From: Agromyces mariniharenae
GTDB taxonomy: Bacteria; Actinomycetota; Actinomycetes; Actinomycetales; Microbacteriaceae
Direction of reading: 5' to 3'
Length of the DNA stretch: 64,000 nt
Assembly: GCF_008122505.1 (NCBI RefSeq)
Contig: NZ_VSSB01000001.1
Span: 1,224,891-1,288,890 of the forward strand
The notes under the pieces were generated by a model. The model was not told the DNA's origin, did no database searches, and saw only the letters and a list, made by a program, of their open reading frames with translations. How positions within the stretch are numbered: the first letter of the stretch is position 1; every line of letters begins with the position of its first letter. Below, piece by piece: positions 55,245 to 56,240 of the stretch. The position numbers and the translations under genes are program-made.

Positions 55245-56240
55245 TCAGTAATGCCAGGGGTAGGGACCCCAGTCGGGGTCCCGCTTCTGCAGGAACGCGT
55301 CGCGGCCCTCGACCGCCTCGTCGGTGCCGTAGGCGAGGCGCGTCGCCTCGCCCGCGAACACCTGCTGCCCCACCATGCCGTCGTCGACCGCGTTGAACGC
55401 GTACTTCAGCATGCGGATCGCCGTCGGCGACTTCGTGAGGATCGTGCGCGCCATCGCCAGCGCCTCGCGCTCGAGGTCGGCGTGCGGCACGACCCGGTTC
55501 ACGGCGCCCATCTCCCAGGCGCGCTGCGCCGAGTACTCCTCGGCGAGGAAGAACACCTCGCGGGCGAACTTCTGGCCGATCTGGCGGGCGAAGTACGCCG
55601 AGCCGTAGCCGGCGTCGAACGAGCCGACGTCGGCATCCGTCTGCTTGAACCGGCCGTGCTCGCGGCTCGCGATCGTGAGGTCGCACACGACGTGCAGCGA
55701 GTGACCGCCGCCGGCCGCCCAGCCGGGCACGACCGCGATGACGACCTTCGGCATGAAGCGGATGAGGCGCTGCACCTCGAGGATGTGCAGGCGGCCGAGG
55801 GCGGAGAGCGAAGGGTCGCGGGAAGTGTGCGTGTTTGCGGCCTCATCATGGGTCTCGATACGCGTCGCCTCCGGCGGCGCTACTCGACCACCGGGATCCT
55901 CTTCGTACTTGTAGCCGTCGCGGCCGCGGATGCGCTGGTCGCCGCCCGAGCAGAACGCCCAGCCGCCGTCCTTCGGGCTCGGGCCGTTGCCGGTGAGCAG
56001 CACCACGCCGATGCGCGGGTTCGTGCGGGCGTCCTCGAGCGCGCGGAACAGTTCGTCGACGGTGTGCGGGCGGAACGCGTTGCGCACCTCGGGCCGGTCG
56101 AACGCGACCCGGGCGATCCGCCCGTCGTTCGAGTGGTGGTACGTGATGTCGGTGAAGCCCTCGGGTCGTCCGCCCGGGACGCCGGGTGCGGCATCCGCCC
56201 ACTCGCTCGCATCGAACAGTTCGGAGACCTCGCGCGCCAT
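55245..56240 (-). CDS. menB: 1,4-dihydroxy-2-naphthoyl-CoA synthase with repeat-encoded insert
   Basis: The 331-residue crotonase-family enzyme has GRIARVAFDRPEVRNAFRPH, AFCSGGDQRIRGRDGYKY, WAAGGGHSLHVVCDLTIASR and DADVGSFDAGYGSAYFARQI, all MenB hallmarks. It cyclises OSB-CoA. Between YKYEED and LGRLHILEVQRLIRFMP lies about 25-30 residues unlike the family; residues 116-131 are translated from copy 4 of the palindromic repeat (GGRVAPPEATRIET). This is a flexible loop near the active site in known MenB structures, so the protein may still work. TAGGCT (minus strand, 56247-56252) is 6 nt before ATG 56240. Confidence 0.94.
   Translation of the reverse strand: MAREVSELFDASEWADAAPGVPGGRPEGFTDITYHHSNDGRIARVAFDRPEVRNAFRPHTVDELFRALEDARTNPRIGVVLLTGNGPSPKDGGWAFCSGGDQRIRGRDGYKYEEDPGGRVAPPEATRIETHDEAANTHTSRDPSLSALGRLHILEVQRLIRFMPKVVIAVVPGWAAGGGHSLHVVCDLTIASREHGRFKQTDADVGSFDAGYGSAYFARQIGQKFAREVFFLAEEYSAQRAWEMGAVNRVVPHADLEREALAMARTILTKSPTAIRMLKYAFNAVDDGMVGQQVFAGEATRLAYGTDEAVEGRDAFLQKRDPDWGPYPWHY
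55850..55894. repeat. Palindromic repeat, copy 4 (single half), inside menB
   Basis: GGTCTCGATACGCGT ... GCTACTCGACCACCGG matches one half of the element, with inner stem CGCC-TCC-GGCG. It lies fully inside the menB coding frame. On the minus strand it is read as GGT-GGT-CGA-GTA-GCG, so the TAG that acts as stop in other copies is out of phase. Confidence 0.92.

Follow-up and report, generated by a model that had tools for sequence, protein, structure and literature searches.

A half copy of a REPIN-like palindromic element read in frame within the A-loop of Agromyces MenB

The menB gene and its A-loop

The sequence analysed, referred to as the window, was a 64,000-nucleotide stretch of the Agromyces mariniharenae genome (NZ_VSSB01000001.1, positions 1,224,891 to 1,288,890 of the forward strand). 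An open reading frame on its minus strand (55245..56240) encodes a protein of 331 residues that was identified by family profiles as MenB, 1,4-dihydroxy-2-naphthoyl-CoA synthase, a presumably essential enzyme. The product is a member of the family defined by TIGR01929 (402.2 bits, cut-off 342.7), scored 533.7 with NF006186 against a cut-off of 378, and was the sole match at E<=1e-50 in this genome.

Residues 88-106 of E. coli MenB form the A-loop, which lacks order in the ligand-free enzyme and adopts a beta-turn and a hairpin when a product analogue is bound; the loop is also disordered in the other MenB structures solved without ligand, as described in excerpts of PMC3637252. Structure alignment, the literature and an AlphaFold model placed the corresponding loop of the window MenB at residues Q102-L151 (55788..55937, minus strand). 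Residues 147-327 aligned with residues 102-281 of 4els_A, so that L151 is equivalent to residue 106, while Q102, the glutamine of GGDQ, is probably the counterpart of E. coli Q88. The mean pLDDT of the AlphaFold model was 49.5 with a shallow alignment and 72.4 with a more diverse one; in the model with the mean of 72.4, residues 104-148 fell below 50, as did a few brief segments outside this range, chiefly towards the protein termini.

Half of a palindromic element, designated family 1, lies within the gene (55850..55894, listed on the plus strand). Read on the menB coding strand, the element encodes approximately P116-H131, PGGRVAPPEATRIETH, and the 331-residue frame is open throughout, as the original prediction had proposed for codons 116-131. 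The prediction had placed the insert beside the active-site loop; given the position of L151 and the probable equivalence of Q102 and Q88, these codons instead fall inside the lid. The predicted tryptic peptides include VAPPEATR, within the insert, and IETHDEAANTHTSR, which spans its end.

The residues flanking the repeat had been described as unlike the family as far as GRLHILEVQRL, but that segment is canonical and is present in M. tuberculosis MenB. The loop tail HTSRDPSLSA (55800..55829, minus strand) is odd for the family at large, although it is shared with near relatives that lack the repeat. Agromyces sp. NPDC004153 (P0009) has HTSRDPSLSALGRL and no repeat, its YKYDDVGDAHTSRDPSLSALGRL aligning with YKYEEDPGGRVAPPEATRIETHDEAANTHTSRDPSLSALGRL in the window MenB, and the tail is therefore regarded as the host lineage's own loop rather than part of the insert. 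The window protein exceeds that of P0009 (312 residues) by 19 residues, fewer than the 25-30 anticipated for the insert. None of P0004-P0014, which are 89-92% identical and among the 120 best MenB proteins, had the repeat peptide, as judged from the protein. However, the best database match, P0001, has two repeat-like stretches, so that loss of the repeat in P0004-P0014 is possible. Among the other database entries, L094 and P0110, named Planococcus and Streptomyces, carry a MenB of the Microbacteriaceae type and are probably mislabelled or contaminated, and P0003, a MenB-like protein of 466 residues, contains AFCSGGDQ twice and may be an assembly fusion.

The family-1 element in the genome and its relatives

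The pattern GGTCTCGATACGC..CTACTCGACCA was found in menB at 55851-55890 and at four sites in the window altogether, compared with none in 100 shuffles. Across the 4.08 Mb genome, a slightly shorter core was present in 43 exact copies (17 forward and 26 reverse), while the reversed-pattern control had none; no exact copy was present in the first 685,488 nucleotides of one contig (C1:1-685488). A profile was built from 37 distinct copies, with the three in-frame loci, menB included, left out, and was searched against 59 Agromyces MenB loops, the menB alignment stripped of the loop, and 59 rpoB sequences. It matched the menB site at exactly 55850-55894 with E=1.8e-11, so that both the census and the profile bore out the proposed repeat half, and the best match outside the loops had an E value of only 3.6.

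An inverted partner occurs 7-27 nt away in 35 of the 43 copies, giving the doublets that define REPINs. The layout of the pair is CCGGTGGTCGAGTAGCG, a stem-loop, CGCGTATCGAGAC, a spacer, GTCTCGATACGCG, a second stem-loop and CGCTACTCGACCACCGG. One such pair in the window consists of the copies at 5439..5480 (minus strand) and 5491..5526 (plus strand), the first recognised in the genome census and the second by both pattern and census, which also located the two remaining copies. The copy at 19375..19404 (minus strand) and that at 42655..42694 (plus strand), the latter half of an inverted pair, each supply the TAG that stops the adjacent gene, the proteins ending in ELTPVVE and RKPVVE, respectively. 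Tandem repeats with units of 18 nt and 33 nt, in which GGATGCC is frequent, also occur in the window (38160-38269 and 38982-39179). In the whole genome the TAG serves as the stop of a neighbouring gene in 3 of the 43 copies, and every such protein ends in PVVE; the GTAG is internal to the conserved outer end of the element, GGTGGTCGAGTAG. The predicted contrast thus held, the TAG being out of phase in menB.

The half in menB has no recognisable inverted partner and folded no better than shuffles (z=-1.0; 31 of 200 as low), as did a control stretch. An intact pair is found in the menB of Agromyces sp. Marseille-P2726 (L081), where the predicted free energy was -34.7 kcal/mol compared with a shuffle mean of -19.0 (z=-7.0; 0 of 200 shuffles as low); this one pair thus forms the long hairpin of a REPIN.

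The element is also in frame, flanked on both sides by coding sequence, at two other loci of this genome according to a codon model trained on the window, which also returned the menB site (55850..55894). At one, an ABC-F ATPase (G000:C2:32494-34419; L258, L252), an element pair lies in the C-terminal linker, and at the other, an APH-aminotransferase fusion (L077; G000:C1 near 2200797), repeat-like stretches occupy the linker. The first half is read as GGRV at all three loci. The ABC-F ATPase was matched in 59 genomes and 23 of 30 loci were compared. The C-terminal linker varies between species and, among the 23 examined, only that of A. mariniharenae had CGAGTAG/CTACTCG words; one GTATCGA-type word was present in A. 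cavernae (G064) and one word of a second palindromic family, described below, in each of G036 and G077, with further likeness by eye.

A looser pattern was present in 43 of 60 Agromyces genomes, with 0 to 299 copies each, G022, G082 and G017 being high-copy genomes. Of 120 genomes sampled from the family Microbacteriaceae, two of which were Agromyces, 35 contained it (26 of 85 genera). In G017, family-1 halves form arrays with a spacing of about 100 nt (e.g. C1:515174-515837). The Y1 transposase of RAYT type, PF01797, was detected in none of the 60 Agromyces genomes, while 5 of 14 control genomes were positive. Mobilisation by a RAYT is consequently unsupported and the element is only putatively mobile.

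Repeats in the MenB loops of other Agromyces species

The genomes are designated G000 (A. mariniharenae), G080 (Agromyces sp. Marseille-P2726), G064 (A. cavernae), G070 (A. larvae), G029 (A. italicus), G020 (A. albus), G007 (Agromyces sp. ISL-38) and G081 (the loop of A. subbeticus). The 59 Agromyces loops included five clear matches to the family-1 profile, two weak matches, one loop of another palindromic family in A. larvae and one likeness by eye. The best E values of the clear matches were 1.8e-11 (G000), 2.2e-11 (G080), 2.4e-9 (G032), 1.3e-8 (G064) and 8.2e-5 (G081). Both halves of the inverted pair were matched in G080, G032, G064 and G081, the weaker halves with E values of 1.3e-8 to 1.1e-3, and are translated in frame. 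The weak matches, G007 (E=0.026) and G020 (E=2.3), are in short loops that resemble leftover ends by eye. The other 52 loops, G029 and G070 among them, had no family-1 match at E<10, and the insert is thus far from being a conserved segment of unrelated sequence in all MenB proteins of the Microbacteriaceae, the finding that was to have spoken against the prediction. G029 looked like a decayed pair by eye, yet the profile was blank; it was rejected as a carrier and counted apart.

The distance from CSGGDQ to RLHILE was 23-97 residues in the 59 loops; with carriers and carrier-like loops set aside, the remaining 50 spanned 24-38 residues. Outside Agromyces, seven loci yielded no loop on extraction (L142, L145, L147, L152, L153, L159 and L160), and a MenB from the metagenome-assembled genome Actinomycetales bin_157 (L129) has an A-loop of 88 residues.

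The longest Agromyces loop, that of A. larvae, has 97 residues and contains PEPVEG and six tandem VASTGSASSGA units. A second profile, constructed from 32 copies of another palindromic repeat of the A. larvae genome with the core CTTCGACAGGCTCAG, had seven matches in this loop, the best with an E value of 0.016, and none in any of the others. The family-2 core has 365 copies in A. larvae and one in its sister G004, which has the common 34-residue loop and otherwise differs from A. larvae in menB at 0-7 sites per 60. Insertion of another family seems the simple reading of the A. larvae loop. Copy number alone, however, does not predict a family-2 loop, since G003 (254 copies), G025 (183) and G031 (50) all have the common loop. 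Peptides of family-2 type were also seen in P0026, P0035 and P0075, judged from the protein alone.

Trees were constructed from loop-free menB (64 rows) and rpoB (59 rows; G027, in which menB was not found, was labelled a non-carrier and G078, with no rpoB match, was absent), and carriers are scattered on both. The nine carrier or carrier-like genomes required 7 changes, at least 6 of them by well supported branches. Adding G007 and G020 to the five clear carriers gave 5 changes, at least 4 of them on well supported branches; the five alone likewise required 5, no fewer than shuffled labels. Sisters with different loops were found on both trees (G064/G067, G070/G004 and G029/G013).

The loops nevertheless have features in common. 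A glutamate follows YxY in 8 of the 9 carrier or carrier-like loops and in 0 of the 50 others, and a leucine precedes GRLH in 9 of 9 compared with 2 of 50. By eye, the flanks beyond the loop resemble those of species sisters and do not follow loop type. Since carriers are scattered and yet share their loop ends, both recurrent insertion and the transfer of a loop type are candidates. It seems that one loop type houses the repeats, having either spread by short-segment exchange or arisen several times, and the shared ends favour circulation of a single loop type over many separate insertions. The protein sequence of the common 34-residue loop hardly varies among 12 species chosen by that loop, nine being identical, which indicates that the lid is constrained in some species; its DNA distances track those of rpoB (r=0.33, Mantel p=0.004, 12 species).

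Origin and significance of the repeat-coded lid

The explanation that is very probably correct is that a dispersed REPIN-like element landed in the A-loop of menB, a disordered lid tolerant of changes in length, and was retained as peptide. A mobile event would have placed the palindromic element in the stretch coding for the ligand-gated loop, where the reading phase GGT CGA GTA GCG, translated as GGRVA, bypasses its TAG and so adds about 16 residues to the disordered lid. The conserved ends of the loop, GGDQRIRGRDGYxY and RLHILEVQRL, are intact, and the enzyme is consequently expected to be still active. Frame-breaking insertions are presumably purged by selection, and accepted ones would decay through point change and deletion. 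The Agromyces loop exists in two forms, one constrained and one variable in length and sequence, and it is the second that houses the repeats, including the unrelated family of A. larvae. MenB with the insert is probably made and working, the peptide being tolerated rather than useful.

A different history, in which family 1 was inserted once, long ago, into one loop type that then spread among species by exchange of the loop segment via its conserved flanks, is possible, though it is held with somewhat less than even confidence. The glutamate and leucine at the loop ends are nearly restricted to carriers and neither residue belongs to the element, the clear carriers have the same orientation and phase, and repeat-free loops of the E...L type do exist (P0004-P0008, P0031 and P0058). 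Such exchange fits poorly with the loop-adjacent flanks, which by eye look like those of species sisters, with the spacer between the halves, where G080 and G064 have only three of nine letters equal (by eye), with the presence of another family in A. larvae and with P0026, which has D and V at the two loop-end places. The same shared ends lower the odds that the A-loop of Agromyces MenB is a hot spot that has received lid sequence from two or more unrelated palindromic families, some more than once, and this broader reading is doubtful. If it were true, mobile DNA would be a standing source of variation in an active-site loop that is screened by selection.

It is distinctly unlikely that the repeat-derived peptide has been selected because it tunes lid closure or MenB regulation. 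The repeat persists in a gene that has a single strong match in the genome, the first halves in G000 and G064 are similar, and the near-constant 34-residue loop implies that the sequence of the lid can matter; but carrier loops are otherwise variable, G007 and G020 retain short remnants only and the near relatives of the window MenB have no insert. A role of the element as RNA or DNA structure in menB, with the peptide as a by-product, is quite improbable: the intact pair of L081 folds strongly, and transcription is assumed for most REPs, with a possible function as RNA, according to excerpts of PMC3733652, but the window retains a single half that folds no better than shuffles. The probability of a chance resemblance in GC-rich coding sequence is negligible, for although the window has many chance repeats, the 45-nt profile match, together with 43 core copies against none for the control, ruled it out.

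By these tests the element is REPIN-like, without a RAYT, and works like an RPE or an intragenic REP. The excerpts of PMC3116915 describe REPINs as inverted doublets with a short spacer, a potential long hairpin and many copies per genome, all shared here, but the REPIN-RAYT system differs in having the transposase that was absent from the 60 Agromyces genomes. The likeness to Rickettsia palindromic elements that had been proposed stands in the mode of working: RPEs are dispersed palindromic repeats in frame within genes of likely functional proteins (excerpts of PMC3733652), as found at three loci of this genome by the codon model. Membership of the RPE family itself is at most putative; the phylum and the composition are different, and the likeness is one of description. 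The intragenic GTAG/CGTC REPs in the same excerpts also consist of palindromic halves, single or paired, some inside open reading frames, and their TAG is used as a stop by neighbouring genes, as in 3 of the 43 copies here. In two Xanthomonas, REPs were reported at nearly the same position in recB (PMC3733652, excerpts). In the GTAG superfamily the GTAG is at one end of the palindrome; the Agromyces element has a GTAG too, but inside its conserved outer end, and no Y1 transposase was found here. The excerpted account of GTAG/CGTC REPs does not include two unrelated families in one active-site loop, and the term 'actinobacteri' does not occur in the main text of PMC3733652. Among the literature matches listed, which covered few subscription papers, there was nothing on the element or on in-frame palindromes in actinobacteria.

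The novelty lies in two palindromic families using one active-site lid within a single genus. Whether palindromic elements can build working parts of proteins is an old question. The related Agromyces species constitute a natural experiment, in that the lid of one and the same enzyme is repeat-coded in some and not in others, and the question can thus be addressed by enzymology.
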